A DNA stretch of 64,000 nt from Kaistia defluvii (GTDB taxonomy: Bacteria; Pseudomonadota; Alphaproteobacteria; Rhizobiales; Kaistiaceae), in assembly GCF_026343955.1 (NCBI RefSeq), contig NZ_JAPKNI010000002.1, forward strand, positions 620,001 to 684,000, written 5' to 3'. Both the position numbers and the translations under genes were made by a program. The notes under the pieces are model-generated. The model searched no databases. It worked only from the letters and a program-made list of their open reading frames with translations, and was not told the origin of the DNA. Within the stretch, counting starts at the first letter, position 1, and each line of letters opens with the position of its first letter. Positions 390-17,344 of the stretch are shown here, piece after piece.

Positions 390-1520
390 TTAGCGACCGA
401 CCGGCAGAGGCGGTCGCGCGACCGCCTTGCCGGTTTCTGAATCGAAGAGATGCATCGGCTCGACATCGACATAGAGGTCGATCATCGAGTCCACCGGCGC
501 GAAGACGTGCCGGCCGAGCCGCGCCTGGATTTCGATCGGCTTGTCGCGACCGAGCTGGCCGATCAGGATGTTTTCGGCGCCCAGCGCTTCGACCGCAACG
601 ACCTTGACGCGAATGTGCTGCCAATCGGGCCGTTCCCGGGTCTCGTAGATGTCCTCGGCGCGGATGCCGGCGGTAATCGGCCCGCCAGCCTTCTGGACAT
701 AGGGCAGATAGTGCTTGTCGGGGACGGTGACGCTGGTCTCGGAATCGATCCGTACCACCAGCTTCTCGCCTTCATGCTCGAGCCGGGCCGGGATCAGGTT
801 CATCGGCGGCGTCGCCAGGAAGCGCGCCACGAAGGTATCGGCGGGATTGGCGTAGACGTCGAGCGGCCGGCCGGTCTGGATCATCCGCCCTTCGCGCATG
901 ATGCAGATGCGATCGCCCATCGTCATCGCTTCGACCTGATCATGCGTCACATGCACGATGGTGCGGCCAAGGCGGCGATGCAGCTTGACCAGTTCCAGAC
1001 GCATCTCGGCGCGAAGCTGTGCATCGAGATTGGAAAGCGGCTCGTCGAGCAGAAAGGCTTCCGGCTCGCGCACGATGGCGCGGCCGAGCGCCACGCGCTG
1101 GCGCTGGCCGCCGGAAAGCGCGCCGGGCTTGCGCTGGAGGAGATGGTTGAGGCCGAGAAGATCGGCAGCCTTGGCGACCTTTGAGTCGATCTCGGAAAGG
1201 GCGACGCCGCGCATCTTCAGGCCGAAGGCCATGTTGTGCCAGACGGACATGTGCGGATAGAGCGCATAGCTCTGGAACACCACGGCGACATTCCGGTCGC
1301 GCGGGGCGACGTTGTTGACGCTCCGGCCGCCGATCCGCAGATCGCCCGCGGACATGCTTTCAAGGCCTGCGATCATGCGTAGCGTGGTGGATTTCCCGCA
1401 GCCGGAGGGGCCCAGGAAAATCACGAATTCGCCGTCCTCGATCTTCAGATCGACGTCGCGCACACCATAGGCGCCGTTGGCGTAGATCTTGGAGACTCGA
1501 TCGAGCTCGATGGATGCCAT
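390..1520 (-). CDS. Sugar ABC transporter ATP-binding protein, UgpC/MsiK/MalK family
   Basis: Cytoplasmic ATPase that powers a carbohydrate importer (376 aa). Walker A GPSGCGKST is near residue 38, followed by Q-loop VFQSYALYPHM, signature LSGGQRQRVALGRA, Walker B AFLLDEPLSNLDAQ and H-loop VTHD. The C-terminal third is the TOBE/OB regulatory domain typical of MalK-like subunits, and the length is normal. The start MASIELDR is preferred over an upstream in-frame ATG at 1583 because GAGGG lies about 7 bases before it. Upstream is a 376-bp divergent region shared with a DeoR regulator. It may also serve the importer at 6017-9138, which has no ATPase of its own; ATPases of this type are known to be shared. 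That sharing is inference. Confidence 0.93.
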   Translation of the reverse strand: MASIELDRVSKIYANGAYGVRDVDLKIEDGEFVIFLGPSGCGKSTTLRMIAGLESMSAGDLRIGGRSVNNVAPRDRNVAVVFQSYALYPHMSVWHNMAFGLKMRGVALSEIDSKVAKAADLLGLNHLLQRKPGALSGGQRQRVALGRAIVREPEAFLLDEPLSNLDAQLRAEMRLELVKLHRRLGRTIVHVTHDQVEAMTMGDRICIMREGRMIQTGRPLDVYANPADTFVARFLATPPMNLIPARLEHEGEKLVVRIDSETSVTVPDKHYLPYVQKAGGPITAGIRAEDIYETRERPDWQHIRVKVVAVEALGAENILIGQLGRDKPIEIQARLGRHVFAPVDSMIDLYVDVEPMHLFDSETGKAVARPPLPVGR

Positions 1521-1896
1521 TGTCGTCCCTCGTAGGGTGAGAACCTTGCGGCTCCCGTTTCGCCCTCCGCAATTTGCCGGCAAGAGGCCGACATCTTCCA
1601 GCGTAAGCGGCGTGATTGTATGCGCACAAATTCAAACGCCTCAAGGATCTTTTTTGGTCGATCGTGTTTAATTTTTGCGCGCGAACCCCGTCGGAAACCC
1701 CAAGCGCAAACCTAACCAATTGAAAATCATACCATAACGGTTTCCTCTGAAACTCGATCGAATGTTGTGCAATTTCAGCAAGGAGCATAATTCAACATAA
1801 TCGCACACATCTTGGCCCGCTGTGTTTGAATTTGTTTATTTTCCTGCTATGCAAGGGGACCGACTCGAGCGTCCTCGCATGCAGCAGGAAAGTTGA
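1521..1896. promoter_or_regulatory. Divergent promoter region with candidate DeoR operator pair
   Basis: This 376-bp non-coding stretch separates the minus-strand ABC ATPase from the plus-strand DeoR gene. It is clearly AT-richer than its surroundings. ACAAATTCAAAC at 1626-1637 recurs as its exact reverse complement GTTTGAATTTGT at 1824-1835, so the two copies face each other about 198 bp apart. A pair of identical sites in a regulator's own divergent promoter region fits autoregulation and repression through looping, as in other DeoR systems. No gene is seen here. Binding is inferred, not shown. Confidence 0.55.
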
Positions 1897-2774: not shown

Positions 2775-3575
2775 ATGGTTTTTGACTTTTTCGGCGACAA
2801 GAAGAAGGTCGTCATTTCGATGTCGCATATCGGCGCCCTGCCGGGTTCGCCGCTGTATGACGCCAAGGGTGGCCTCAACAAGCTGATCGACGACGCGCTC
2901 GCCGATGTCGAGAAGCTGCAGGCCGGCGGTGTCGACGCCATCATGTTCGGCAACGAGAACGACCGTCCCTACGTATTCAAGGGCGCGCCGTCGGGCATCG
3001 CGGCCATGTCGGCCATCATCCAGGCGATCAAGCCCGAGCTCAAGGTGCCATTCGGCGTCAACTACCTGTGGGATCCGATCGCCTCCGTCTCGATCGGCGC
3101 CGTCACCGGTGCTTCGTTCGTGCGCGAGATCTTTACCGGCGTGTTCGCCTCCGACATGGGTATCTGGGAGCCGAATTGCGCCGAGGCATCGCGTCTGCGT
3201 CACAATCTCGGCCGCGATGACATGAAGCTGCTGTTCAACATCAACGCCGAATTCGCCCATTCGCTCGACCAGCGTCCGATCGAGTTGCGCGCCAAGAGCG
3301 CCGTCTTCTCGTCGCTCGCCGACGCAATCCTCGTCTCGGGTCCGATCACCGGCGAGCCGGCCGATGCCTCGAATCTGCGCAAGGTCTGCGAGACCGTCAC
3401 CAGCGTGCCGGTCTTCGCCAATACCGGCGTCAACATCGACAACGTCACCGATATCCTGAACCACGCCAGCGGCGTCGTCATCGGCACCCATTTCAAGGTC
3501 GATGGCTACACCTGGAATGCGGTCGACGCCGACCGCGTCAAGCGCTTCATGGACGTCGTCTCGCGCCTGCGCTAG
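2775..3575 (+). CDS. BtpA/SgcQ family TIM-barrel protein
   Basis: Predicted cytosolic (beta/alpha)8-barrel protein of 266 aa. Family features are the opening VVISMSHIGALPGSP, the segment GGVDAIMFGNENDRP, FGVNYLWDP, and the phosphate-binding-like C-terminal half VFANTGVNIDNV followed by GVVIGTHFKVDG. BtpA was named from a role in photosystem I biogenesis in cyanobacteria. Most proteobacterial members, such as SgcQ, lie in sugar operons and have no proven reaction. The start at 2775 is preferred over 2763 because GGAG sits 6 bases upstream of it. It lies between DeoR and an Ldh-family dehydrogenase next to a sugar importer, so a role in sugar or polyol breakdown is likely. Confidence 0.88.
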   Translation: MVFDFFGDKKKVVISMSHIGALPGSPLYDAKGGLNKLIDDALADVEKLQAGGVDAIMFGNENDRPYVFKGAPSGIAAMSAIIQAIKPELKVPFGVNYLWDPIASVSIGAVTGASFVREIFTGVFASDMGIWEPNCAEASRLRHNLGRDDMKLLFNINAEFAHSLDQRPIELRAKSAVFSSLADAILVSGPITGEPADASNLRKVCETVTSVPVFANTGVNIDNVTDILNHASGVVIGTHFKVDGYTWNAVDADRVKRFMDVVSRLR

Positions 3576-3611
3576 GCCCGGTTTCCGGCCGGGTATCCCG
3601 ACCGTGCCTTC

Positions 3612-3653
3612 CCATGCCGGCCCTGCCTCGCGCAGCGGCCGGCATGGTCGTTT
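3612..3653 (+). terminator. Rho-independent terminator after the BtpA-like gene
   Basis: A perfect 11-bp stem, CCATGCCGGCC at 3612-3622 pairing with GGCCGGCATGG at 3637-3647, encloses a 14-base loop. It is followed by TTTT at 3650-3653. It lies 37 bp beyond the BtpA-like stop codon and would end the DeoR-BtpA transcript. Confidence 0.75.
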
Positions 3654-3724
3654 TGGGCCCTCGCGTGTGCCGGAAATCGCACGGCTCCCGAAAATTAGCG
3701 CCTTCGTGCGGTTCCGACGCGCTC

Positions 3725-3756
3725 TGAGGTGTTTCACCTCATTCATCATTTGAATG
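3725..3756. promoter_or_regulatory. Two adjacent dyads upstream of the Ldh-family gene
   Basis: TGAGGTG-TTT-CACCTCA at 3725-3741 is a perfect 7-3-7 palindrome. It directly adjoins CATTCA-TCATT-TGAATG at 3740-3756, a perfect 6-5-6 dyad. They lie about 140-170 bp before the ATG at 3899, in the 323-bp gap after the BtpA-like gene. The rest of that gap (3576-3898) shows only the terminator and no gene. The dyads look like operators for one or two dimeric repressors. The shared TTGAA-like core with the 1626/1824 sites is too weak to assign them to the DeoR protein. Confidence 0.4.
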
Positions 3757-3898
3757 CGGAGCGGTTTCGCCTTAGACGAGGGTTCGCGGCTGCGTTGGCT
3801 CGCGACGAGCACCCTCGCACCCCTTCGCTTTTGTTGAATTGGCGAACCAGGAAGTCGGACCGACGCCTTCCGGTTCAACGCTTGCTTGAGGAATAGAC

Positions 3899-4987
3899 AT
3901 GGCCTTGGAAAAGATCGCCGGCGTTCGTGCTGCGGCCCGTGACGTGGAACCGTTCGTCGCCGACCTGTTCAAGGCAGCCGGCGTTAGCGCGGAGAGCGCG
4001 GAAGCCTGCGCGCGCGCCCTGGTCGACGCCTCGTCGCGCGCGTTCGACACGCATGGCGTCCGCCTGATCCCCTTCTACATGCAGGGCGTCACGGGCGGCC
4101 GGATCAACAAGACGCCGACTCTGTCCGTGACCCAGAAGGCGGCTTCCGCCGTTCATATCGATGCCGATGACGGCTTCGGCCATTTCGCCAGCTACCGCGC
4201 CATCGACGAGGCCGCGAAGCTTGCCGACAAGACCGGCGTCGCGGTTGCGACCGCCGGCCGCTCGACCCATCACGGCGCCACCGGCTGCTATACGCGTTAT
4301 GCCGCCACAAAGGGCTATGTCGCGATCGGCATGACCCATGCCGATGCCATGGTGGTCCCGCATGGCGGCGCCGCCGCCTTCTTCGGCACCAACCCGCTTT
4401 CCTTCGCCGTTCCGGTCGAGGGTGAGGACCCGCTGCTGCTCGACATGGCGACCAGTTCCATCCCGTTCAACCGGGTCGGCCTGCGCCGCGCCACCGGCAC
4501 GCCGCTTCCCGAGGAAGTCGCCGTCGACGATCAGGGCCATTTCACCACCGACCCCAATGCGGCGGTCTGGGTTGCCCCGGTTGGCGGCGCCGGCTTCGGC
4601 TATAAGGGCTCTGGTCTCGCCGCGATGATCGACATTCTCTGCTCGGCCTTCACCGGCATGGGGCATGGCAAGACGATGGCGTCGTTCAACGGCCCGGACT
4701 TCTCCAAGCCCATCCAGATCGGCCATTTCTTCATCCTGTTGTCGCCGGCAATGTTCCAGACGCTGTCGATGTTCGACGCCCGCATCTCCTCCTTCGTCGA
4801 AGACCTGCGCGCCCAGCCGGGCAAGCCGGGCCAGACGGTTCATGCGCCGGGCGATATCGAAAAGGTTGAGGCCAAGAAGCGCGCCGTGGAAGGCATTCCG
4901 GTCGACAATGTCACCTGGGCCGCGCTGGAAGGCTTTGCCGACAAGCTCGGCGTCAAGGTCCCGAGCTCCACCATCGACGCAGTCTGA
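3899..4987 (+). CDS. Ldh-family NAD(P)-dependent oxidoreductase (malate/L-lactate dehydrogenase type 2)
   Basis: Cytosolic dehydrogenase of the MDH/LDH type 2 family (362 aa, normal length). This family oxidises 2-hydroxyacids such as malate, lactate, sulfolactate, ureidoglycolate or 2,3-diketogulonate, and has a fold unrelated to classical LDH. Family signatures are ALVDASSRAFDTHGVRLIP, STHHGATGCYTRYAA, HADAMVVPHGG, FFGTNPLSFAVP and the late GYKGSGLAAMIDILCS. GAGG lies about 8 bases before the ATG. It is on the same strand as DeoR and BtpA but separated from them by a terminator and two dyads, so it may have its own promoter. The substrate is not predictable. Confidence 0.9.
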   Translation: MALEKIAGVRAAARDVEPFVADLFKAAGVSAESAEACARALVDASSRAFDTHGVRLIPFYMQGVTGGRINKTPTLSVTQKAASAVHIDADDGFGHFASYRAIDEAAKLADKTGVAVATAGRSTHHGATGCYTRYAATKGYVAIGMTHADAMVVPHGGAAAFFGTNPLSFAVPVEGEDPLLLDMATSSIPFNRVGLRRATGTPLPEEVAVDDQGHFTTDPNAAVWVAPVGGAGFGYKGSGLAAMIDILCSAFTGMGHGKTMASFNGPDFSKPIQIGHFFILLSPAMFQTLSMFDARISSFVEDLRAQPGKPGQTVHAPGDIEKVEAKKRAVEGIPVDNVTWAALEGFADKLGVKVPSSTIDAV

Positions 4988-5038: not shown

Positions 5039-5983
5039 TCAGGCCTTGATGCCGAGGCCGTCATTGCCGCTGCCGCAGAGGACGACGACCGTCTTTTCGC
5101 CGGCGGCGAGCTTGATGTGGCCGTTGAGAACCGCGGCCGCCGCCGTCGCCGCGCCAAGCTCCACGGCGAGCCCGGTGTTCTTCCACATCCATTCCGCCGC
5201 CGCGACCGGCTCGTCTTCCGGCACCAGCACCAGTTCGTCGACGCAGCGCTCGATGATCTCGAAATTGATCGGCGCGGTCGCGCGCGCTGCCAGGATCGGC
5301 ACGTTGGTGACGACGTTCTCGAGCATGACCGGCTGGCCGGCCTTGCGGGACTCGAAGAGCGTCGGGCAGCCGGCCGCCTCGACGCCGACGATGCGCGTGC
5401 CGGGCTTGCGCTGCTTGATCGCCTCGGCGATGCCGGCGATGAGGCCGCCGCCGCCGATCGAGATCACGACCGTATCAACGTCGGGCATGTCATCGAGGAT
5501 CTCCAGGCCGATCGTCCCCTGGCCGGCGATCGTTGCTTCGTCGGCAAACGGGTGGAGGAGGGCGCCGCCGCGTTCCTCGGCGAGCTTGCGGCCGGCCTCC
5601 CAGGAGAGGTCCCAGAACGCGCCGACCACATGCAGTTCCGCGCCATAGGAGGCGATGCGCTGGCGCGCCAGTTCCGTCGAGGTGGTCATGACGCAGACGC
5701 TCGCTGGCACGCCCAGCTGTTGTCCGGCATAGGCGATCGCCGCGCCGAAATTGCCGCCAGACGCGGTGACCACGCCGCGACTGCGCACTTCTTCCGGCAG
5801 CGACAGCACGGAATTGAAGGCGCCGCGCGCCTTGAACGATCCGGAGACCTGAAGGCATTCCGGCTTGAACCAGAGCTCGGCCACGTCGCCCTTGCGGGGC
5901 GAGGGCGCAGCCGGCACCAGCGGTGTGCGGCGGACATGGTCGCGGATACGGGCGGCGGCGTCGGTATAGGCTGTCGGTTGCAT
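5039..5983 (-). CDS. PLP-dependent threonine/serine dehydratase-like enzyme (EutB-like)
   Basis: Fold-type II PLP enzyme of 314 aa. Lys in SGSFKARGAFN (about residue 52) should form the PLP aldimine. ASGGNFGAAIAYAG is the phosphate and substrate loop, ISIGGGGLIAGIAEAI is the glycine-rich PLP phosphate site, and VVLCGSGNDG closes the protein. It has no ACT regulatory domain, so it is a catabolic type. It is the last gene of a minus-strand run with the 6017-9138 importer (33 bp gap). EutB, the hydroxyectoine-utilisation dehydratase, belongs to this family, and the cluster also holds M24 and AstE-like enzymes. The exact substrate remains open. Enamine or imine products of such enzymes are RidA substrates, and a RidA gene lies at 12318. 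Confidence 0.88.
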   Translation of the reverse strand: MQPTAYTDAAARIRDHVRRTPLVPAAPSPRKGDVAELWFKPECLQVSGSFKARGAFNSVLSLPEEVRSRGVVTASGGNFGAAIAYAGQQLGVPASVCVMTTSTELARQRIASYGAELHVVGAFWDLSWEAGRKLAEERGGALLHPFADEATIAGQGTIGLEILDDMPDVDTVVISIGGGGLIAGIAEAIKQRKPGTRIVGVEAAGCPTLFESRKAGQPVMLENVVTNVPILAARATAPINFEIIERCVDELVLVPEDEPVAAAEWMWKNTGLAVELGAATAAAAVLNGHIKLAAGEKTVVVLCGSGNDGLGIKA

Positions 5984-6016
5984 GATACGCGTTTCCGGGA
6001 ATGGCGGGGCCGAGAG

Positions 6017-6862
6017 CTAGCCCTTGACTGCGCCGGCAAGCATCGACTTGCCGATATAGGGATAGGCGAACAGGCCGAGGATCAGCGGCGGCAGGATGCC
6101 GATCGTCATGGCCGCGGCCGTCGGGCCCCATTCGATGCCGCGCGACGTGACGAAGAAGGTGGCGCCGACCGTCACCGGGACCGCGTTCTTGGTGGTCAGG
6201 ATCAGGCCGAACAGGAACTCGTTCCAGCTGTAGATGAAGGATAGCAGGAAGACGGCGAGCATCACCGGGCGGCTCAGCGGCAGCACGACGTGCCAGAGTG
6301 TCTTCCACATCGATGCGCCGTCGATCTTGGCGGCGTCGTCCAGTTCGCGCGGCACGTCCTGCACGAAGCCGACGAACATCACCAGTGCGATCGGGATGTT
6401 GATGATGCAACTGATCAGGGCGAGGCCGATGCGGGTGTCGAGCAGGCCGACCTGCTTGTACATGAAATAGAACGGGATCGCGAAGATGATCAGCGGTAGC
6501 GCGCGCAGATTGGTGATGATGGGCAACAGCCAGGTCCGGCCGACACCCTGCCGCACCATGGCATAGGCGGCCGGCAGGGTCAGCACGATGGCGAAGATCG
6601 TCCCCAGCGTCGCGATGACGATGCTGTTCATGATGTAGTGCGAATAGTTCACGTTCGGCGAGGCGAGGACCGCGCGATAGTGCTCCAGCGTCGGGGAGAA
6701 GATCCATTTCGGCGGGTAGGCATTGATGTCGGCATTGGTCTTGAACGAGGTCAGCACCGTGGAGAGGATCGGGAAATTGACCAGAAGCGCGACGGCGACG
6801 AACACCACCCAGCGCAGGAAATGGGCGACGCTGTCGATACGGCTGTGACGCGAGACGATCAT
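6017..6862 (-). CDS. Carbohydrate ABC transporter permease, MalG type
   Basis: Inner-membrane subunit of a CUT1-type importer (281 aa, about six membrane segments). It opens with a hydrophobic segment FVAVALLVNFPILSTVL and ends with a segment through LILGLFAYPYIGKSM. The cytoplasmic EAA-like loop, ELDDAAKIDGASMWKTLWHV near residues 185-205, contacts the ATPase. It begins one base after the stop of the partner permease at 6864, so translation is probably coupled. It is followed by the dehydratase gene, which ties transport to catabolism. Confidence 0.93.
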   Translation of the reverse strand: MIVSRHSRIDSVAHFLRWVVFVAVALLVNFPILSTVLTSFKTNADINAYPPKWIFSPTLEHYRAVLASPNVNYSHYIMNSIVIATLGTIFAIVLTLPAAYAMVRQGVGRTWLLPIITNLRALPLIIFAIPFYFMYKQVGLLDTRIGLALISCIINIPIALVMFVGFVQDVPRELDDAAKIDGASMWKTLWHVVLPLSRPVMLAVFLLSFIYSWNEFLFGLILTTKNAVPVTVGATFFVTSRGIEWGPTAAAMTIGILPPLILGLFAYPYIGKSMLAGAVKG

Positions 6863-6863
6863 G

Positions 6864-7736
6864 TCAGCTCCTCCGGACCACGAGACGCATCGCCACCACG
6901 ATCAGGGTGAGCGACATCAAGAGCAGCAGGATCGAGACGGCGACGGCCTCGCCCAGCGTGTTCTGCACGAAGAACAGCTTGTAGATGTAGATGCTGATCG
7001 AGGTAGTCAGGTTGCCAGGCCCGCCGCCCGTGAGCACGTAGATGTGGTCGAACACGCGAAAGCTGTCGATGAAGCGCACGAAGATCACGATCACCAGCGC
7101 CGGCTTCATCATCGGCAGCAGGATGTGGAAGGTCGAGCGGAAGCCCGTCGCGCCGTCGACGGCGGCGGCCTCCTCGAGTTCGTAGGAGACGGTCTGGCGC
7201 GCCGTCAGCAGGATCAGGAACGCGAAGGGCGTCCACTGCAGCACCTCGATGGCGACCACGGTCTTGTAGATGCTGCCGCGCCCGAGGAAGTTGACGGCAT
7301 AGCCCATCATCTCGAGATAGACCGGAACCGCGCCGGTGAATTCGTTGAGGATCAGCCGGTACATCACGCCCATCAGCGCCGGCGACACCATCATCGGCAG
7401 CATCAGGATCGCCGTCATCCACGGCCGCTTGACCAGAAGCGGATGCAAAATGAAGACGAGGATCAGGGCCGCGCCGACCTCGATGGTGGTGCAGATGACG
7501 GCGAACTGCAGCGAGAAGCGCAGCGCCTGCCACATCTTCGGATTGGTCACGGCGGCGACGTAGTTATCGATGCCGACGAAACTGCCGATCATGTTCTGGA
7601 ACGAGACGTCGCTGAACGAGTACCAGAGGTTGATCAGCGTCGGAAAGCCGAGCAGCGCTCCCATGAACAGGCAGAGGGGCACGAGAAGGGCGCGGGCCGA
7701 GGCCTGCTCCTTGGTCTCGAAGCTTGCGTAGGACAT
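6864..7736 (-). CDS. Carbohydrate ABC transporter permease, MalF type
   Basis: Inner-membrane permease of 290 aa, partner of the downstream MalG-type protein. The EAA loop ELEEAAAVDGATGFRSTFHI at about residues 180-200 has the canonical EAA-G spacing. MSYASFETKEQ is taken as the start because AGGAG lies 6 bases upstream; the in-frame ATG at 7793 would run into the inter-gene hairpin. Six hydrophobic segments are visible. A strong stem-loop lies between it and the binding-protein gene upstream, which should lower permease expression relative to binding protein. Confidence 0.93.
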   Translation of the reverse strand: MSYASFETKEQASARALLVPLCLFMGALLGFPTLINLWYSFSDVSFQNMIGSFVGIDNYVAAVTNPKMWQALRFSLQFAVICTTIEVGAALILVFILHPLLVKRPWMTAILMLPMMVSPALMGVMYRLILNEFTGAVPVYLEMMGYAVNFLGRGSIYKTVVAIEVLQWTPFAFLILLTARQTVSYELEEAAAVDGATGFRSTFHILLPMMKPALVIVIFVRFIDSFRVFDHIYVLTGGGPGNLTTSISIYIYKLFFVQNTLGEAVAVSILLLLMSLTLIVVAMRLVVRRS

Positions 7737-7754
7737 TCGGGCTCCTGGGCGCGG

Positions 7755-7785
7755 AGGCTGTCGCGAGGGTTTCCCGCGACAGCCT
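7755..7785 (-). promoter_or_regulatory. Strong stem-loop between binding-protein and permease genes
   Basis: AGGCTGTCGCG at 7755-7765 pairs perfectly with CGCGACAGCCT at 7775-7785 over a 9-base loop. It lies just downstream of the binding-protein stop. It has no T run, so it probably protects the upstream mRNA from 3' exonucleases, or partly terminates, rather than ending transcription fully. Confidence 0.6.
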
Positions 7786-7803
7786 GAGGTCATCGGACGG
7801 AAG

Positions 7804-9138
7804 CTATTGGGCGAAGGCCTTCTTCATGTCGGCGACGACATTGGCAATCGCCTCGTCCTGCTCGATCTCGCCGGTCCAGTAGCCGGTGAAGTTCTCGGCC
7901 ATGTTGGTGTAGATGCCCATCGCCTTGGCGCTGGTGGCGCCGTCCATGACGAAGCCATACTTGGCGGCGTGCTCGCCCATCAGCAGCATTTCCGGCCGGT
8001 CGCCGGCGATCTCCGCCATCAGGCCCTCGGCGAGCGGCGGCGAACCGCCTTCCTTGGCGTAGAGCTTCATCGGCTCGGCGGTGGCGAGCCACGAAAGGAA
8101 CGCCTTGGCTTCGTCCAGCTTCGCGGTGTTCTTGTTGATGCCGAGACCGAGGCTGTGGAAGTGGGTCTTCGGGCCTTCCGAGCCGGCGGGCTCGTGGCTG
8201 AGGCCGAGCTTGCCGGCAACCGTCGGATATTTGGTGGCGTCGTTGAACTCCGGCACGGCGGCGTTCCACTGCAGCATGAACGCGACCTGGCCGGCGCCGA
8301 ATACGCTGTTGGCCTCGCCATATTCATAGGTCGAGCTGTCGCCGGGCGTCGCTTCGTTGTCGGTGATGATCTTGTAGATCTCGAGGCCGCGCTTGAAGGC
8401 GGGCGAGTCGACGGTGATATTGCCGTCCTTGTCGCGCCAGTTGCCGCCATTCGAGGCGACCGTGCCCTGCCACAGCATGATGTTGTAGAGCAGGTTCTTC
8501 ATCTGCAGCACGGTGCCGTAGCGGGTCGGGCTGTCGGGATTGATCGACTTGGTGAAGAACAGGGCCGAGGCGATGAAATCGTCCCAGTCCCACTGGTCTG
8601 CCGGCTTCGGCGACAGCTTCTTGCCGAGGATCTTTTCCGAGATCTCCTCGTATTTCGCCTTCCAGGCCGGATCGGTGTTGAGCTGCTCGATCAGGTCCTT
8701 GCGGTAATACAGGAAATGCAGGCTGAGATCGGTCGGGATGCCGTAGGTCTTGCCTTCATATTTCTGGGTCTCGATCGAGTTCTTCGAAACCACCTTGTAG
8801 ACGTCCTCGGTGACCAGGTCGTCGATCGGCGTCATGAACGGCGCGTAGAGGCCGACGTCATAAGTCGCCGTCAGCATGACGTCGAATTCCTTCGAGCCCG
8901 CGGCGACATCGGCCAGCATCTTCTCCTTGAAGCCCTGCTGGCTGAAATAGATCACCGACGCTTTCGAATTGTTCTTGGCGCCCTCGGTGGAGTTGTAGAG
9001 GTCGAGCACCTTACGAAAGGCGGACTCGGCCGGTTCGCCCGGCCAGGCCAGGATGGTGATGTCGGCGAGCGCCGTCGAGGCGGAGAGCGCGGTCGCCAGG
9101 ATGGCGGCACCGGCGGTCAGGAATCTGGTTTTCAACAT
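7804..9138 (-). CDS. Extracellular solute-binding protein, family 1 (sugar type)
   Basis: Periplasmic binding protein of 444 aa for the importer at 6017-7736. The start MLKTRFLTAGAAILATALSA gives a classical signal peptide, cleaved after STALA. The mature protein begins DITILAWPGEP, and GIPTDLSLHFLYYRKDLIEQL near residue 150 is typical of the MalE/UgpB-like family. The first in-frame ATG at 9234 would put 32 polar residues before the signal sequence, so 9138 is used. It is the first gene of the operon (binding protein, two permeases, dehydratase). The candidate IclR site at 9256-9276 lies 118 bp upstream. No ATPase gene is in this operon. Confidence 0.94.
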   Translation of the reverse strand: MLKTRFLTAGAAILATALSASTALADITILAWPGEPAESAFRKVLDLYNSTEGAKNNSKASVIYFSQQGFKEKMLADVAAGSKEFDVMLTATYDVGLYAPFMTPIDDLVTEDVYKVVSKNSIETQKYEGKTYGIPTDLSLHFLYYRKDLIEQLNTDPAWKAKYEEISEKILGKKLSPKPADQWDWDDFIASALFFTKSINPDSPTRYGTVLQMKNLLYNIMLWQGTVASNGGNWRDKDGNITVDSPAFKRGLEIYKIITDNEATPGDSSTYEYGEANSVFGAGQVAFMLQWNAAVPEFNDATKYPTVAGKLGLSHEPAGSEGPKTHFHSLGLGINKNTAKLDEAKAFLSWLATAEPMKLYAKEGGSPPLAEGLMAEIAGDRPEMLLMGEHAAKYGFVMDGATSAKAMGIYTNMAENFTGYWTGEIEQDEAIANVVADMKKAFAQ

Positions 9139-9255
9139 GTCGTTCCCCGTTGCTGTTCTCTGGACTTCGCTGTCCGGTGCCGACCCATTTCCCGATTGCC
9201 GCGCTTCTGCGAGCCGGTCTGCGGGCAGGGCCATCGGCCCGGCGCGGATTCGATT

Positions 9256-9276
9256 TATTCCATATTTATAGAATTG
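9256..9276. promoter_or_regulatory. Candidate IclR operator, site A
   Basis: ATTCCATATTTATAGAAT, within an AT-rich stretch 118 bp before the binding-protein start, matches two other sites near 12212 and 13679 under the consensus ATTCCATAWWTRTRKAAT. IclR-family dimers commonly bind such TTCCA-type dyads. It lies in the 278-bp gap 9139-9416, where no gene is seen. Confidence 0.55.
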
Positions 9277-9416
9277 AATTCATTACAACAGAAGCCTAGC
9301 ATGGTGACCTCCCGGGTCAAGGCCCGTTTGATCGACCGGTCACCGCAGGAATCTCCGCGATGAGGTGTTGCAGCATCCCGACGGCCGGCCCAGCGGCGGC
9401 CCCCCAACGCGCTGCC

Positions 9417-10421
9417 TCACTCGAACCGGGCGAGGTTCATCAGGCAATCGCCCGATTGGCTGTGGGTGTGCAGGCGGCGGGTCAGAACGATGCCGCCTTC
9501 CTGGAAGCGCAGCACCAGCGGCTCTTCCAGCGGCCGCTCCAGGTCGTGCAGCCAGCCGCAGATGTCGCCGGCAGCCACCGTGTCGCCGATATCGACGGCC
9601 GGCTCGAACCAGCCTTCGCGCTCGGCATAGACGAACAGCGACTGGCCGCCGGTCGACAGGATCACCGTCTCGGGGCCGCGGTCCTCCTTCAGATAGAGGA
9701 TCGGCCGGCTGGTAAGCCCGACGGCCTGCAACAGATTGTCGACAGCGCGCTGGGTGACGGCCATGCTGGTCTTGGTCGCGGTGGCGCCGCCGCCGAATTC
9801 GCCGGACAGCGCAATGCAGCCGGCGCGCAAGGCCGCCGCCATCGAGGTCGGCGAGTCCGGGCCGTTGTCGGCGATCATGCCATAGGGCAGGCGCATCGAG
9901 CGCATCAGTTCCAGGCCGCGCTGGTAGCGTTCGCCATCGCCAAGCCGTTCGATCAGACTGCAGATCAGGTGGTCCATGCTGGTGCCGCCGGAGTGGAGGT
10001 CCAGCACCACCTCGTGGCGCGGGAAGATCTCGTGCTCGATGAAATGCGCCATGCGCTGGGTCGGGCCGCCGAACGCATTGCCGGGGAAGGCGCGGTTCAT
10101 GTTGCCGCCATCGAAGGGCGAGCAACGCTTGGCCGCCATCACCGCCGGCGTGTTGGCGGAGGTAAGAATGGTGAGCGAACCGCTTATGTCGGAGGCCTCG
10201 ATCAGGCGGATCGCCTTCAGCAGCGTCAGTTCGCCCTCATACTCGTCGCCATGATTGCCGGCCATCAGCACCAGGCTGGGCCCATCGCCGTTCTTGATCC
10301 GGCAGACCGGCATCTTGATCTGGTAGTAGGGCGAGCGGTCGATCGAATAGGGGAAGCTGAAGAAGCCGACCTGCTTGCCTTCCTGGTCCCAGGATATGTC
10401 GGAAAAGGCGCCCGTATGCAT
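9417..10421 (-). CDS. Succinylglutamate desuccinylase/aspartoacylase family deacylase (DoeB/EutE-like)
   Basis: Zinc carboxypeptidase-fold N-deacylase of 334 aa. The zinc ligands are the His and Glu in GNHGDEYEGE (about residues 55-64) and the His in LDLHSGGTSMDH (about residue 143). NMNRAFPG and the C-terminal barrel with YAEREGWFEPAVDIGDTVAAG are typical of the AstE/AspA group. Close relatives include DoeB/EutE, which removes acetate from N-acetyl-diaminobutyrate in ectoine breakdown. A catalytic Glu is plausible in the LSGEFGGG segment. It reads away from the divergent MBL-fold gene. With the M24 protein at 13860 it suggests hydrolysis of a cyclic or N-acylated amino compound. The substrate is inferred only from family. 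Confidence 0.88.
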   Translation of the reverse strand: MHTGAFSDISWDQEGKQVGFFSFPYSIDRSPYYQIKMPVCRIKNGDGPSLVLMAGNHGDEYEGELTLLKAIRLIEASDISGSLTILTSANTPAVMAAKRCSPFDGGNMNRAFPGNAFGGPTQRMAHFIEHEIFPRHEVVLDLHSGGTSMDHLICSLIERLGDGERYQRGLELMRSMRLPYGMIADNGPDSPTSMAAALRAGCIALSGEFGGGATATKTSMAVTQRAVDNLLQAVGLTSRPILYLKEDRGPETVILSTGGQSLFVYAEREGWFEPAVDIGDTVAAGDICGWLHDLERPLEEPLVLRFQEGGIVLTRRLHTHSQSGDCLMNLARFE

Positions 10422-10565
10422 TCTCTAGATCCTTCGTGATTCACGATTCTCCAGCGCCCGGGCCGTCGCCCGTTCCGCTGGGATTTCCAAGCTTTCATTG
10501 CATTCTTCAGCCTGCGACGGCATCGGCCGCCGCATCCTCAAAACCGAGCGGGAGTCGAGACGGAC

Positions 10566-11306
10566 GTGCGTATCGAAGAGGGTCTTCATCTGGTGATGAG
10601 CGGCGGCGGCGGGTTCGACCTGACCGATGCTTTTGACTGCAACGTATTCCTCGTCGCGGCCGATGGCGGCTGGCTGATGTTCGACGCCGGGGCAGGACGC
10701 GATCCGCAAGGCGTGTTCGACGTGCTGGCCGAAGACGGCATCGACCCGTCGAGCGTCCGCCATCTGCTGCTGACGCATGGCCATGCCGACCACTCCGGCG
10801 GCGCGGCGGCGCTGCGGGAGAGGCTCGGACTTACCGTTCATGCCGGCGCGGCGACGGCGGCGATGGTTTCCCAGGGCGATGAGGAGGGCATCAGCCTCGG
10901 CAAGGCGAAGCGTGGCGGCGTCTACCCGCCCGACTATGTCTATCACGCCTGTCCGGTCGACAGCGTCTGGCAGCCGGACGAGGTGCGGCGCTTCGGCGAC
11001 GTCGCCGTGCAGATGATCCTGACGCCGGGCCATAGCCATGACCATGTGAGCTATCTCGTCACGACGCCGCGACGAAAAATGCTGGTGGCGGGCGACGCGC
11101 TGTTTCATGGCGGCAAGGTCGCGATCCAGGACATCCGGGACTGCGATGTCGGCGCGATCTGCGAGACCGTCCGCAAGCTCGCGACGATCGAGTTCGACAC
11201 CTTGCTGCCGGGACATCACGCCTTCACGCTGAAGCATGCGCGCCGCCACGCCGACCTGGCCCTTCAATGTGTGGACCGTATGCAAATCCCGCCCTCCATC
11301 ATCTGA
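10566..11306 (+). CDS. MBL-fold metallo-hydrolase
   Basis: Metallo-beta-lactamase-fold hydrolase of 246 aa. The binuclear zinc motif LLLTHGHADHSGG (about residues 70-82) is complete, the next ligand lies in LTPGHSHDHVSY, the bridging Asp in VAGDALFHGG, and the last His in LLPGHHAF. GTG at 10566 is used, with GGGAG 11 bases upstream. Members include glyoxalase II-like thioesterases, lactonases and others, so the reaction is open; a lactone or thioester hydrolysis step would fit a catabolic cluster. It is divergent from the deacylase with a 144-bp gap. Confidence 0.9.
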   Translation: MRIEEGLHLVMSGGGGFDLTDAFDCNVFLVAADGGWLMFDAGAGRDPQGVFDVLAEDGIDPSSVRHLLLTHGHADHSGGAAALRERLGLTVHAGAATAAMVSQGDEEGISLGKAKRGGVYPPDYVYHACPVDSVWQPDEVRRFGDVAVQMILTPGHSHDHVSYLVTTPRRKMLVAGDALFHGGKVAIQDIRDCDVGAICETVRKLATIEFDTLLPGHHAFTLKHARRHADLALQCVDRMQIPPSII

Positions 11307-11338
11307 TGCCCCGCCTGTCGAGATACGCTGTGGCCTGG

Positions 11339-12238
<900 letters not shown>

Positions 12239-12317
12239 CGGGTCACGATTTACGTCGATCCCGCAGCCACCTCGACAGGAAGGGCTCCGATGCGCGGAGC
12301 GGAAAACGGATCATCGA

Positions 12318-12821
12318 ATGCGCCACAATCTGACTGCCGCCCCCGCAGCCGAGGGCGGCTCGCCCTATGACCGCCTGCGCGCGCTCGGCATTGAATTGCC
12401 GCGCGTGCCGCCGCCGGTGGCGAATTTCGTGACTCATGTCCGCGAGGGAAACCTGCTGTTCCTCTCGGGGCAGGGGCCGATGCAGGGCGACGGCTTCGAG
12501 CATCACGGCCGCGTCGGCGACGACGTGACGGTCGAGCAGGCCTATGCGCATGCCCGCATCACCGGCCTCAACCTGCTGGCCGTGATGCAGGAAGCGCTGG
12601 GTTCGCTGGACAAGGTCCGGCGTGTCGTCAAGCTGCTCGGCATGGTCAATGCGGTGCCGCATTTCACCCAGCATCCGCAGGTGATCAACGGCTGTTCGGA
12701 CCTGTTTCTCGATGTGTTCGGCGAGGCCAGGGGCCGGCATGCCCGCTCCGCCGTCGGCATGGGCTCGTTGCCAAACCAGATCACCGTCGAAATCGAGGCG
12801 GTCGTCGCCGTCGAGGATTAG
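12318..12821 (+). CDS. RidA-family reactive intermediate deaminase
   Basis: RidA/YjgF/UK114 family protein of 167 aa, expected to be a trimer that hydrolyses reactive enamines and imines to ketones and ammonia. The catalytic-type Arg is in RHARSAVGMGSLPN, and the late acidic residue in TVEIEAVVAV is conserved. LFLSGQGPMQGDG is the usual early strand, and the 140-155 aa core is normal for the longer subfamily. The start at 12318 begins just before the conserved domain. It fits as a clean-up partner for the PLP dehydratase at 5039. It is divergent from the SDR across the site B operator region. Confidence 0.9.
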   Translation: MRHNLTAAPAAEGGSPYDRLRALGIELPRVPPPVANFVTHVREGNLLFLSGQGPMQGDGFEHHGRVGDDVTVEQAYAHARITGLNLLAVMQEALGSLDKVRRVVKLLGMVNAVPHFTQHPQVINGCSDLFLDVFGEARGRHARSAVGMGSLPNQITVEIEAVVAVED

Positions 12822-12834
12822 GCGCCGTGGGAGC

Positions 12835-13662
12835 CTAGCGCTCGCGCCATCCGAGTTTGCGCTCGATCGATTCCGAGGCGTCGCGGACGGCCTTGCCGTA
12901 AAGCTCGGGATTGGCCACCACCTTGTGCTCCGGCAGCACGATGGAAATTGTCGCGACGCATGCGCCGGACTCGTCGCAGATCGGCGAGGCGACGCAGGAG
13001 ACGAGGAAATCCGTCTCGCTGATCTGGATCGACAGCCTCTTTTCAAACGCCTCGCCGGCCAACTCGGAGAGAGCGGCGGCGTCGGTCTTGGCCTTCTCGG
13101 TCGGCGACGCCTTGGCGCTGCGGCTGAAAATGGCGACCCGCTCGGCATCCGGCAGATGGCCGATCAACAGCCTTCCAGACGCTGTCCAGTTCAGCGGCAC
13201 GCGGGTGCCGACTTCCGACATGACGCGAAAATGGCCGGGGCCATCGGCCATGGCGAGCACCACCATGTGGTCGCCGTCGCGGCCGCAGATCTGCACGGTC
13301 TCGCCGATCTGGCGGCCAAGCTCATGCATGACGTGGCTGGCCTCGCCGAGGAAATCCAGCGACCGGGCATAGACGAGGCCATAATGGTAGAGGCGCGGCC
13401 CGAGCCAGACGAGGCCGTCGCCCCGACGGGACAGCAGCTCGCGTTCCACCAGTTCATCGATGATGACATAGATGGTCGAGAGCGGCGCCCCCACCGCCTT
13501 GGCGATCGCATAGCTGCCGGCCGGTTCGCCGGTCTGGTAGAGGTGGTCGAGGATCTGCAGCGCGCGGTCCATGCCGCTGACGCGCGAGCGGCGCGGCGCC
13601 TTGGCGTCGTTCGCTTCCGGTTCGGCGAGAGGGCGTTGCACGGACTTCATGGCGGAGGACAT
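12835..13662 (-). CDS. IclR-family transcriptional regulator
   Basis: Regulator of 275 aa. The N-terminal winged helix, GMDRALQILDHLYQTGEPAG through PLSTIYVIIDELVERELL, spans about residues 30-95. The C-terminal GAF-like effector domain includes GRQIGETVQICGRDGDHMVV and a late EAFEKRLSIQISETDFLVSC. The start at 13662 follows a GAGAGA ribosome-binding stretch; 13650 is an alternative. The candidate site C begins 17 bp upstream, in keeping with autoregulation, and the same motif lies before the importer operon and between SDR and RidA. The divergent M24 gene begins 198 bp away. Confidence 0.93.
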   Translation of the reverse strand: MSSAMKSVQRPLAEPEANDAKAPRRSRVSGMDRALQILDHLYQTGEPAGSYAIAKAVGAPLSTIYVIIDELVERELLSRRGDGLVWLGPRLYHYGLVYARSLDFLGEASHVMHELGRQIGETVQICGRDGDHMVVLAMADGPGHFRVMSEVGTRVPLNWTASGRLLIGHLPDAERVAIFSRSAKASPTEKAKTDAAALSELAGEAFEKRLSIQISETDFLVSCVASPICDESGACVATISIVLPEHKVVANPELYGKAVRDASESIERKLGWRER

Positions 13663-13678
13663 TCTCTCTGCATGCGAT

Positions 13679-13699
13679 CTATTACATATATATGGAATA
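13679..13699. promoter_or_regulatory. Candidate IclR operator, site C
   Basis: On the minus strand the core reads ATTCCATATATATGTAAT, the same pattern as site A (9256) and site B (12212). It sits 17 bp upstream of the IclR start, between that gene and the divergent M24 gene, where an autorepressor would be expected to bind. Confidence 0.58.
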
Positions 13700-13859
13700 G
13701 TGTTGCTCAACGTCGCCGTCAATCGGATCCGGCGGCGTAAAGCCTGCAAGGCCTTGCGATCGACCCTCCCGCGACGCAAGTTCGGCCTCGCGGCTTGTCA
13801 GAGTCGCCCGGACCGAAGACGGTAGCCGAGCCTCGGCTGTTCCAAGGAAAGATAGAGAC

Positions 13860-15119
13860 ATGTCCGATCTGGATCGCGCGCGCGCCCAGCGTCTGTTGCA
13901 GGAGCGCGGGCTGGACGCGCTGGTGTTGACCCAGCCGGAGAGCTTCACCTACGTAACCGGCTTGCCCGGCGGGGTGCCGGCCATGTGGCGCCGGGCCGGT
14001 GGTGCCACGGCGCTGGTGCCCTCGGATGCAGGCGCCCGGCTTGGCGCGGTTGTCGGCGACCTGAATGCCGATGCGCTGGCGCGCCGCGCCCCGGACATCG
14101 ACATCCGCACCCATCCGCTGTGGATCGACCTCGTCGATATCGAAGGTCTCGGCCCCGATGCCCCGGCCGATACGGCGTCGCGCGTGACCGAAGCCTATCG
14201 TCGCGACAATGGCGGCCAGGATGTCTTTTTGCCTCGTCCGACGACCTTCTCTGCTGCCGGCGCGTTTGCGGTGCTGGGCGATCTGCTGCGCGAGCGCGGA
14301 CTGGCCCGAGCAAGGATCGGCATCGATCTGGAATTCATGCCCGCCGCCGATTTTGCCACGCTGCAGCGGGTCCTGCCCGACATCGAATGGGTCGACGCTT
14401 CCGAGGTCGTGCGCCGGCTTCGGGCGATCAAGTCGGCCCGCGAGATCGACTGCATCCGCCGCGCCTGCTCCCTCGCCGATGCAGGCTTCCATGCGTTGAC
14501 GGCGGGGATCGAGCCCGGCCAGACACCAAAGGACATGACGCGTCTCTGGCGCGATGGCGTCGTGGCCGCCGCTGCTGCGTGCGGCGAGACGGGTCTGACC
14601 GGCATGTGGGACTATATGTCGGTCGGTTCCGATCCCTGGAGCGGCGGCGGCTCGGTGGTTCCGGGCGCGATCCTCAAGGCCGATGTCGGCTGCATCGTCG
14701 AAGGCTACAATTCCGATACCGCGCGCAGCTACGTCTTCGGCGAGCCTGACCGGACTGCGCGGGATGTTCATGCGGCTTTGGAAAGCGCCTTCGAGGCAGG
14801 ATTGACGGCGATCCGGCCGGGTATCGCCATGCGGGACGTGTTCGAAGTCACGGTTGGCGCCATGCGCGCCGCTGGCTATTCTGGCTACCGGCGCGGTCAC
14901 TATGGCCATTCGATCGGCGCCAGCGTCGGCTCGGAGGAATGGCCCTTCTTCGCCGCCGACAGCGACGTCATCCTCGAGCCCGGAATGGCGCTCGCCTTTG
15001 AGACGCCGTTCTACGGCAAGGGCATCGGCGCGCTGACGATCGAGGACAGCCTGATCGTCACCGAAACCGGTATCGAGGTCCTGAACAACCTGCCGCGGGA
15101 ACTCGTCCGTCTCGGATAG
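13860..15119 (+). CDS. M24-family metallopeptidase-like enzyme (Xaa-Pro dipeptidase / DoeA-like)
   Basis: Pita-bread-fold M24 enzyme of 419 aa. The creatinase-type N-terminal domain (about residues 1-165) is followed by the catalytic domain. All five metal ligands can be placed: Asp in KADVGCIVEG and Asp in YNSDTARSY (about 275-286), His in HYGHSIGASVG (about 348), Glu in LAFETPFYG and Glu in LTIEDSLIV. M24 members include Xaa-Pro dipeptidases, creatinase and ectoine hydrolase DoeA/EutD. Given a DoeB-like deacylase and a EutB-like dehydratase nearby, it may hydrolyse a cyclic amidine or amide. A plain dipeptidase is also possible. AAGGAAAG lies upstream of the ATG. Confidence 0.88.
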   Translation: MSDLDRARAQRLLQERGLDALVLTQPESFTYVTGLPGGVPAMWRRAGGATALVPSDAGARLGAVVGDLNADALARRAPDIDIRTHPLWIDLVDIEGLGPDAPADTASRVTEAYRRDNGGQDVFLPRPTTFSAAGAFAVLGDLLRERGLARARIGIDLEFMPAADFATLQRVLPDIEWVDASEVVRRLRAIKSAREIDCIRRACSLADAGFHALTAGIEPGQTPKDMTRLWRDGVVAAAAACGETGLTGMWDYMSVGSDPWSGGGSVVPGAILKADVGCIVEGYNSDTARSYVFGEPDRTARDVHAALESAFEAGLTAIRPGIAMRDVFEVTVGAMRAAGYSGYRRGHYGHSIGASVGSEEWPFFAADSDVILEPGMALAFETPFYGKGIGALTIEDSLIVTETGIEVLNNLPRELVRLG

Positions 15120-15797: not shown

Positions 15798-16427
15798 TCA
15801 GCCCCGGGCGGCGCGGATGGCGGAAAGCGAGTCGGCCATCCGGTCCCTGACGCTTTCGGTCGAGCCTTCGGCATACATCCACGAGCCGCCAACCGAGGTG
15901 ATGTTGCGCAGCTTGCCGTAGCCGGCCAGGTGAGAGAGCTGGATCTTGCCACTCGGCATGAAGGTGGCGGTGGTGAAGATATTGGCGAAATCGGCCAGGA
16001 CCAACGTGCCGCCGGCCGGCTCGGACGGGTAGAATTTCAGGAGATCAAAGCCGGCCGCCTGCGCAGCCATGACCTCGCTCGCCGTCTGAACGCCGGGCAC
16101 CAGCGTGATCGGCCCTTTCTTCGCGTGGGCGCAGACGGAAGGCAGGAAGCCGGGGCTGATGCCGAACTGGGCGCCCGCCGCGACGGCGGCGTCATAGTGC
16201 TCATCGGTCAGGATCGTGCCGGCGCCGATCAGCAGGTCCGGGAAATCGCGGCGGCAGGCCGCGATCGACGCCAGCGCCGCCTCGCTGCGCATGACGATCT
16301 CGATCGCCTCCGCGCCGCCCGCGGCGAGTTCCGCCACCAGCGACAGCACGAAGTCGACGGAGCGCGGCTGCACGATCGGCAGGATCGCCGCCTGGCGGAG
16401 GCGGGGTTCGAGAAGGTCGGGTGTCAT
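15798..16427 (-). CDS. 2-dehydro-3-deoxy-6-phosphogalactonate / KDPG-type aldolase
   Basis: Class I aldolase of the KDPG/KDPGal family (209 aa) that cleaves a 2-keto-3-deoxy-6-phospho sugar acid to pyruvate and glyceraldehyde-3-phosphate. The catalytic Glu is in AIEIVMRSE (about residue 43). GAGTILT and FGISPGF form the phosphate site. The Schiff-base Lys is in LLKFYPSEPAGG (about residue 130). It overlaps the kinase stop by an ATGA junction. The kinase-aldolase pair is the core of a De Ley-Doudoroff-type pathway. Which epimer is used cannot be told. Confidence 0.9.
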   Translation of the reverse strand: MTPDLLEPRLRQAAILPIVQPRSVDFVLSLVAELAAGGAEAIEIVMRSEAALASIAACRRDFPDLLIGAGTILTDEHYDAAVAAGAQFGISPGFLPSVCAHAKKGPITLVPGVQTASEVMAAQAAGFDLLKFYPSEPAGGTLVLADFANIFTTATFMPSGKIQLSHLAGYGKLRNITSVGGSWMYAEGSTESVRDRMADSLSAIRAARG

Positions 16428-17344
16428 CCGGCTAGCTGTCCTTCCAGCATGGCGAGGGTTTCGGCCCGGTTGGGCGCGCCGAGGCGACCGCCGAACGTCA
16501 GGCATTTCAAGGCTGCGGCAGCGCTGGCGAAGCGGATGATGCGCTCCATGTCCCAGCCTTCGGCGAGGCCGACGGCAAAGCTGCCATGGAAGACATCGCC
16601 GGCGGCCAGCGTATCGACCGGGGTGATCTTCGGCGCGGGGGTATGGCAGACGCGACCGCTCTCGGAGTCGAGCCAGAACGTGCCGTCGCCACCCGCCGTC
16701 ACCGCGACGAAGACGCCCGTGGGGGTGTGCAGCGCCTGCACGGCCTCTGGCGCTGAAATCTCGTCGCCGCAGAGGATCGCGGCGGCCGGCTGGGAGGCGA
16801 CGATGTGGCTGGCGAAAGGCAGCAGGCCCTCGATCACCGAACGAGCCGCGACATCGGCGTCGAGAATGGCCGGAATGCCCGCCGCCTGGGCTGCCTGCAA
16901 CGCCATCGCAGCCGCCGCAGGCCAGCGGACATCCGCCAGCACGGCGTCGAATTGGCTGATATCGAAGGGCAGCGCGTCCGGTGCGGTGGTGGCGCGCGGA
17001 TCGTAGAACGGCACAATCATGCGTTCGCCGCGCGCGTCGACGAGGATGGTGGCGATGGCCGAGCGCGCGCCGGCGACCCGCCGGATGCCGGAACAATCGA
17101 TGCCCTCGGCCGATAGTTCGGCGATCAGTTCCTGGCCGAGCCAGTCGTCGCCCACGCTGGCCCAGAGCGCGACGTCGGCACCCTGGCGTTTCGCGGCGGT
17201 GGCGGCGCTGGACGCCATGCCGGCGGCATTCTGCACGGCCTCGATCGGGATGAACTTGCCCGGCCCGCGCGGCAGCTCGTCCAGCCGATAGATCGTGTCC
17301 TGCGTCAGCGCGCCGACGGAGAGAATGCGGGGAACGGATGCCAT
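16424..17344 (-). CDS. PfkB-family sugar kinase (2-keto-3-deoxy sugar acid kinase-like)
   Basis: Ribokinase-fold kinase of 306 aa. The C-terminal PfkB motif DTLAAGDVFHGSFAVGLAEG (about residues 242-261) contains the catalytic base Asp in AAGD and the anion hole. The N-terminal glycine-rich substrate motif is weak (FIPIEAVQNAAGMASSAATA). Its stop overlaps the start of the downstream aldolase by 4 bases, so it probably phosphorylates the sugar acid that the aldolase then splits (KDG or KDGal kinase role). Other PfkB substrates are possible. No regulator is adjacent. Confidence 0.9.
   Translation of the reverse strand: MASVPRILSVGALTQDTIYRLDELPRGPGKFIPIEAVQNAAGMASSAATAAKRQGADVALWASVGDDWLGQELIAELSAEGIDCSGIRRVAGARSAIATILVDARGERMIVPFYDPRATTAPDALPFDISQFDAVLADVRWPAAAAMALQAAQAAGIPAILDADVAARSVIEGLLPFASHIVASQPAAAILCGDEISAPEAVQALHTPTGVFVAVTAGGDGTFWLDSESGRVCHTPAPKITPVDTLAAGDVFHGSFAVGLAEGWDMERIIRFASAAAALKCLTFGGRLGAPNRAETLAMLEGQLAG

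Follow-up and report, generated by a model that had tools for sequence, protein, structure and literature searches.

In the NanK/NanE route, N-acetylmannosamine (ManNAc) is phosphorylated first and joins the metabolism of N-acetylglucosamine (GlcNAc) at GlcNAc-6-phosphate (GlcNAc-6-P). The available text of PMC9537276 lists ManNAc with other common amino sugars whose catabolism is initiated by phosphorylation, and describes the ong pathway of Pseudoalteromonas, where OngB removes the acetyl group of N-acetylglucosaminate (GlcNAc1A), OngC converts the product to 2-keto-3-deoxygluconate (KDG) by deamination, and a KDG kinase then acts; growth by that pathway requires the RidA gene, ongD. Here we analyze an island of genes in a 64,000-nucleotide stretch of Kaistia defluvii DNA (contig NZ_JAPKNI010000002.1, positions 620,001 to 684,000; "the window," within which all positions are counted). 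We consider it probable (roughly 0.78) that the island encodes an inducible pathway for ManNAc, or a close N-acylmannosamine, in which oxidation is the first step. If true, this would be an oxidation-first exception to phosphorylation-initiated amino-sugar catabolism.

We re-annotated the island from open reading frames, codon-position GC content, Pfam, and NCBIfam, which placed the starts of several long frames further inward. Positions 5039-13662 hold a PALP gene, two CUT1 permeases, a CUT1 binding protein, an AstE-family deacylase (AstE), a metallo-beta-lactamase (MBL)-fold hydrolase, a short-chain dehydrogenase/reductase (SDR), a RidA-like protein, and an IclR regulator (Table 1). A preliminary description had recognized these genes, with an adjoining M24-family protein, as a catabolic island with a CUT1 sugar-type importer and an IclR regulator. 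Every gene it named is present in the interval 5039-15119, and Pfam supports that outline.

The SDR, a side player in that description, proved to be the key to the substrate. Its top match in the PDB was N-acylmannosamine 1-dehydrogenase (4CR6, 4CR7, 4CR8; E=1.4e-125, 421.7 bits), the next entry being a dihydroanticapsin dehydrogenase at 153 bits. The window SDR is identical to 4CR6 at 212 of 252 positions (84%), and its Ser...Tyr-x3-Lys active site is present, with SVNSF...YVAAK common to both proteins. The SDR of genome G298, whose locus (L141) carries the whole cluster set, reaches 97% (250/258) and branches with 4CR6 at a support of 99/99, in a tree of nine rows that omits four of the ten relatives (G303, G305, G306, and G310). 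Sequence comparison thus makes the window SDR a strong candidate for an N-acylmannosamine 1-dehydrogenase, an assignment that would in turn name the likely substrate of the cluster. Relatives of the SDR were confined to few genomes: of 397 order genomes, 10 had them at E 1e-80, all within this family, and of 385 genomes of the class, one had them at E 1e-85, the window's own; no record in the plasmid collection matched at E 1e-50.

Flavobacterium sp. 141-8, which we take to be the source strain of 4CR6, is filed in Bacteroidota. Because its sequence places the 4CR6 gene inside the alphaproteobacterial genus studied here, the strain is probably a misnamed relative of this genus or acquired the gene from it. 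PMC9290085, in its available part, names strain and EC 1.1.1.233 together, the gene having been supplied to a study of sialyllactose synthesis. According to the corresponding part of PMC4016182, EC 1.1.1.233 oxidizes ManNAc to the lactone with NAD+, and N-acylmannosamine 1-dehydrogenase was used as a coupling enzyme in a sialic-acid lyase assay; neither text, as far as available, places the enzyme in a pathway. Since the product is a lactone, a lactonase and then a deacetylase would be needed downstream. The uridine diphosphate-ManNAc dehydrogenase in the accessible text of PMC4557933 is a different enzyme and was set aside.

The importer points, independently of the SDR, to the same sugar. 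We searched 297 order genomes for the binding protein, scoring up to five candidates per genome, and obtained 29 matches. Of these, six are part of AstE clusters, two of the six (G310, on a contig other than that of its AstE and beside PALP) being so assigned by inference; of the 23 outside the cluster, 22 (L176-L197) directly adjoin a ROK kinase and NanE, the epimerase of ManNAc-6-P. On plasmids, NanE was adjacent in all four loci examined, of 46 records matched. This kinship with NanE-linked binding proteins suggests ManNAc as the ligand. NanE itself showed a complementary distribution: of the 11 cluster-bearing family genomes none had it, the matches there being confined to the ROK half of the NanE query, versus four of six same-genus genomes without the cluster (p=0.006, ignoring relatedness). 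The whole-genome searches for SDR, NanE, and NagA covered the cluster-bearing genomes apart from G294 and G315, which also carry AstE, and the cluster-less sample consisted of the six same-genus genomes, eight other family genomes without AstE standing outside it. NagA was uninformative as a discriminator.

Identity between the window's binding protein and its NanE-linked relatives is 45-53%, low enough for the ligand to have changed. The same chemistry could act on another N-acyl hexosamine or on a ManNAc-containing oligosaccharide or derivative, such as N-glycolylmannosamine, and the AstE family need not be bound to one epimer, given that its orthologs elsewhere accompany fold-III deaminases and importers of the CUT2 or amino-acid type. 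We nevertheless regard a different sugar as unlikely, because the enzyme with which the SDR shares 84% identity takes its name from N-acylmannosamine, and because the importer's relatives, through their linkage to NanE, indicate mannosamine. For these two reasons we also set aside GlcNAc1A, the substrate that analogy with the ong pathway would offer.

We then asked how far the gene set recurs. Twelve other family genomes, of which seven belong to the same genus, carry AstE orthologs at 67-97% identity; six further same-genus genomes have none. The set recurring at their loci comprises IclR, RidA, SDR, MBL, and AstE together with binding protein-permease-permease-PALP. The SDR was detected in 11/11 cluster-bearing family genomes versus 0/6 same-genus genomes without the cluster, and, of 13 family genomes with the cluster, 12 have PALP at 72% identity or more, G299 being the one without it. 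The counted genomes are related, and such counts overstate independence; the recurrence of the set across the family, M24 aside, is more than chance. Two loci are incomplete: that of G294 ends at a contig end after a partial SDR, and the 14-kb stretch of G315, from a fragmented assembly, showed no SDR, MBL, or RidA. A further family member, G314, has an AstE copy of 59% identity in a context of rhizobial type. An aminotransferase class-V-like gene lies 3' of AstE, before the binding protein, in L147 (10339-11517, minus strand), L146, and L149, Pfam having been run on the L147 copy.

The M24 gene behaves differently from this set. Among the 12 cluster-bearing genomes searched, 6 have a full-length copy, and one of the six cluster-less genomes has a partial one. 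It adjoins the cluster in three genomes (G000, the window's own; G297; and G300); in G294, where it sits on another contig, it may or may not do so. It is an accessory neighbor, not part of the conserved core.

Three promoters of the island share a 20-base palindrome of the form TATTCCATATATATGTAATA, at 9256, 12213, and 13680, the last with 11 pairs and one mismatch. Under a model built from these three sites, so that their own scores are circular, they score 34-37, compared with 11.2 for the best non-site in the 64 kb and 13.8 for the best of 20 shuffles. Independent support comes from the relatives, scanned apart from the cut locus of G294. All three sites are present in G290, G291, G297, G298, and G300 at scores of 21-37. 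G305 (15-31) also has three sites, as does G306 (17-21, with an additional fourth), whereas two were found in each of G303 and G310 and one strong site in G315. G299, which is without the binding-protein operon, keeps the other two. The IclR regulator presumably binds this shared palindrome.

Combining these features, we propose the following pathway. The CUT1 importer would bring ManNAc into the cell, where the SDR would oxidize C1 with NAD+ to give N-acetylmannosaminolactone and the MBL-fold hydrolase would open the lactone to N-acetylmannosaminate. AstE would then take off acetate, leaving mannosaminate, from which PALP would eliminate water and ammonia, and RidA would hydrolyze the enamine or imine to KDG. 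A KDG kinase and a 2-keto-3-deoxy-6-phosphogluconate (KDPG) aldolase, perhaps the adjacent PfkB-Eda pair, would finally yield pyruvate and glyceraldehyde-3-phosphate. IclR would control at least three promoters through the one common palindrome, and the module as a whole would stand in for NanK/NanE downstream of a shared importer family. The preliminary description had already envisaged deacylation and a release of ammonia involving RidA, both of which are steps of the proposed pathway, and its suggestion of a polyol-like compound agrees with ManNAc.

The roles of AstE, PALP, and the MBL-fold hydrolase are suggested by their context and, for the first two, by the ong analogy. Mannosaminate has the L-amino-acid configuration at C2, and glucosaminate is D-configured; an L-configured substrate would suit an AstE related to the L-specific DoeB and a PALP resembling L-threonine dehydratase. 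The MBL-fold hydrolase has a complete di-metal motif (H71, H73, D75, H76, H156, D177, and H217, invariant in 11/11 aligned sequences), and its predicted structure (mean pLDDT, the predicted local distance difference test, 76; model from 11 sequences) was recognized by Foldseek as an MBL fold with no function attached. Its position in the cluster makes it a putative lactonase.

The preliminary description had instead read the island as an ectoine-like system, in which M24 opens a cyclic or N-acylated amino compound, AstE deacetylates it, and PALP deaminates it. The superfamilies of DoeA, DoeB, and EutB are indeed all represented, and the likeness holds at that level, but none of the three proteins approaches the ectoine models. 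M24 scored 80 bits against DoeA/EutD (TIGR02993, cut-off 613), AstE 215 bits against DoeB/EutE (TIGR02994, equivalog cut-off 402.7), and PALP 226 of 413 bits against EutB NF005680 and 210 bits against EutB TIGR02991 (cut-off 413.35), below its 287 of 331 bits for the serine/threonine dehydratase model PRK08246. In the PDB, M24 is closer to proline dipeptidases (103 bits, the best match) than to DoeA (67 bits), and its nearest models are the uncharacterized "putative peptidases" PRK14575 and PRK14576 (178 and 177 bits). AstE aligns with DoeB in its NHGDE, D-x-HSGG, NR, and E-x-GGG motifs and in the tree (quick method; Shimodaira-Hasegawa-like approximate likelihood ratio test only) falls into a group, shared with 58 further ortholog rows, that is separate from DoeB (6TWL/3NA6). 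With M24 also dispensable, and SDR and importer both indicating ManNAc, we consider an ectoine-like system very improbable. The description had tied its reading to a DoeA-like ring-opening M24 and to co-occurrence of the families in other genomes: the M24 protein turned out closer to dipeptidases than to DoeA, and the other families do co-occur.

Related gene pairs were seen elsewhere. A paralogous locus in the same genome (L154, G000:C15, ~393-401 kb) reads IclR, AstE (35% identity), PALP (43%), AraC, binding protein, and two permeases. Its candidacy as the "true" ectoine locus was not upheld, as it reaches only 300 of 402.7 bits for TIGR02994 and has other gene content. PALP proteins 60-61% identical to the window's occur on 18 enterobacterial plasmid records. 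On Pantoea pPAT9B02 (L162), PALP stands with RidA, an amino-acid ATP-binding cassette (ABC) importer, and AstE, and on a Klebsiella plasmid (L163), a truncated AstE lies beside an insertion sequence. Pairing of AstE with PALP behind an importer may be a pattern that recurs.

Several observations weigh against the proposed ManNAc pathway. On the importer side, no NanE or AstE lies within 1.5 kb of one binding-protein relative (L200, a further copy in G306), NanE is also missing from two cluster-less genomes of the genus (G289 and G295), and NagA was found in 17/17 genomes searched, so that a GlcNAc route exists anyway. On the enzyme side, the nearest folds of the MBL-fold hydrolase are B3 beta-lactamase-like, not those of a known sugar lactonase, and neither the G300 locus nor the stretch from G315 has its gene. 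AstE orthologs elsewhere pair with fold-III deaminases of D-amino-acid type; because the deaminase type thus differs between lineages, sequence does not fix the stereochemical preference of AstE. The role of OngD in the model pathway is, by the available text of PMC9537276, itself unknown. Only three genomes showed the kinase-aldolase pair, whose kinase is ribokinase-like by model score.

Two further such observations concern the unity of the island. The G299 locus keeps AstE, MBL, SDR, RidA, and IclR and is without binding protein, permeases, and PALP, with no PALP anywhere in that genome at E 1e-75; and the same model that finds the three palindromes finds none at the AstE/MBL promoter. These would be expected if the island were two unrelated modules, a binding protein-permease-PALP operon and an SDR/MBL/AstE/RidA set, acting on different compounds. 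We hold this to be improbable, given that the palindrome is common to the binding-protein operon and the SDR/RidA interval in several genomes, that both sets otherwise co-occur in the family, and that the importer's relatives adjoin ManNAc-phosphate enzymes, matching the SDR substrate.

Table 1. Features of the island and its immediate neighbors (positions within the window)
Feature	Position	Strand	Evidence
MalK-type ATPase of adjacent CUT1 system	390..1583	-	PF00005 + PF17912
PALP, fold-II pyridoxal phosphate (PLP) serine/threonine-dehydratase-like enzyme	5039..5983	-	PF00291, 250 bits
CUT1 permease, MalG/UgpE type	6017..6862	-	PF00528; operon order conserved in relatives
CUT1 permease, MalF/UgpA type	6864..7793	-	PF00528
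CUT1 solute-binding protein, proposed ManNAc binder	7804..9138	-	PF01547
Operator-like palindrome, 5' of binding-protein operon	9256..9275	.	score 36.0
AstE/AspA-family Zn deacylase, proposed N-acetylmannosaminate deacetylase	9417..10421	-	PF24827 (AstE_AspA_cat), 138 bits
MBL-fold hydrolase, proposed lactonase	10566..11306	+	PF00753, 94 bits
SDR, probable N-acylmannosamine 1-dehydrogenase (EC 1.1.1.233)	11339..12127	-	PDB 4CR6 match
Operator-like palindrome between divergent SDR and RidA genes	12213..12232	.	score 34.3
RidA/YjgF-like protein, proposed enamine/imine hydrolase for PALP product	12318..12821	+	PF14588, 76 bits; PF01042, 45.5 bits
IclR-family regulator, presumed to control cluster	12835..13662	-	PF01614 + PF09339
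Operator-like palindrome, 17 bp 5' of IclR, IclR/M24 intergenic	13680..13699	.	score 37.2
M24-family (creatinase/prolidase-like) protein, accessory neighbor	13860..15119	+	PF00557
KDPG-aldolase-like (Eda) gene, candidate last step	15798..16427	-	TIGR01182, 163.6 bits vs cut-off 156.05
PfkB-family sugar kinase, candidate KDG kinase	16424..17344	-	PF00294, 167 bits

On its left, the island is flanked by genes for a MalK-type ATPase, a DeoR regulator, a BtpA/SgcQ-family protein, which exceeds its NCBIfam cut-off, and an Ldh_2 dehydrogenase (390-4987). The four were found together in G297, G299, and G300. Ldh_2, BtpA, and DeoR were rejected as members of the system, the block moving as its own unit alongside the cluster. 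Since the window cluster contains no ATPase of its own, its importer could possibly share the adjacent MalK-type one; in G305, G306, and G310 an ATPase at 42-45% identity lies inside the cluster. Further along the window, positions 24421-31999 hold genes for a branched-chain-type ABC importer (binding protein, permease, and ATPase) beside a glutamine-synthetase-family gene.

To the right of the island, the Eda and PfkB genes overlap by 4 bases (15798-17344), and the pair also appears in stretches from G297 and G290. The PfkB protein scored 133 of 300 bits as a ribokinase and 41 of 400 bits as a kinase of KDG or 2-keto-3-deoxygalactonate. Completion of the pathway by this pair, as KDG kinase and KDPG aldolase, is offered as a suggestion, and its linkage is not part of the core.

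Next, we considered AstE orthologs outside the family, which are 49-60% identical to the window's and occur in Rhizobium, Mesorhizobium, Shinella, Bradyrhizobium, Achromobacter, Azospirillum, and others. Among 45 such loci, many of them from close relatives, 42 had a fold-III PLP deaminase, 40 a RidA-like gene, 29 a sugar-lactonase-like Amidohydro_2 gene, and 29 a CUT2 binding protein. At loci of AstE paralogs, deaminase, RidA, and lactonase were found in 0/37 and a PALP gene in 1/37. RidA was counted at any tblastn match to E 1e-5 and the other families above 100 bits; two Sulfitobacter loci (L096 and L097, 43-45% identity) fell in neither group. A 394-amino-acid protein without a Pfam or NCBIfam match (L135:13011-14195, minus strand) recurs in 29 of the 45 ortholog loci. 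The Amidohydro_2 protein of Rhizobium has L-fucono-1,5-lactonase as its best NCBIfam match (99 of 400 bits), and no SDR relative above 50% identity was found in the Rhizobium-type AstE operon, which is probably a sister route for another aldosaminate. These results suggest a general AstE-deaminase-RidA module for aldosaminic acids, with the window holding the mannosamine version and its own dehydrogenase.

No description of an oxidation-first ManNAc route appeared among the matches listed in a search of the open-licence literature, PMC8869657 giving only passing mentions in its available part. It seems likely that the island represents an undescribed, phosphorylation-free ManNAc route, the home of EC 1.1.1.233, which replaces NanK/NanE in one family and brings with it a new AstE-family deacetylase and a fold-II mannosaminate dehydratase, the AstE-RidA-deaminase core serving other aldosaminic acids more widely. 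N-acylmannosamine 1-dehydrogenase, known here only as a laboratory reagent, would thereby gain a pathway and its likely true source genus. Substrates are likewise proposed for an AstE deacylase and a PALP dehydratase that family models name broadly or as ectoine-like, and one importer family would appear to serve two quite different catabolic modules.

Compared with described systems, the island shares with ectoine and hydroxyectoine utilization (DoeA, DoeB, and EutB) the AstE, PALP, and M24 superfamilies only; its proteins fall below the cut-offs, its substrate logic would be different, and M24 is not core. With NanK/NanE it has in common the CUT1 importer family and presumably the sugar, but the window system was found without NanE, and oxidation would come first. 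The Rhizobium operon (for example, on R. etli p42c) resembles the island in combining an AstE of 59% identity with RidA, a deaminase that uses PLP, an importer of sugar type, and IclR, and differs in its CUT2 importer, fold-III deaminase, and Amidohydro_2 protein. The ong pathway, like the window, clusters a deacetylase, a PLP deaminase, and RidA, a likeness of plan carried by other protein families. As available descriptions have it, ong starts from the oxidized sugar and uses a D-aminoacylase-like deacetylase (also PMC12017989), a fold-III deaminase, an SSS importer, and a MurR/RpiR regulator. By Pfam, an OngB-like D-aminoacylase and a fold-III OngC are not in the window cluster, which has AstE_AspA_cat and PALP instead; a dehydrogenase and a putative lactonase would act first, followed by AstE and the fold-II PALP, behind a CUT1 importer and under an IclR regulator.

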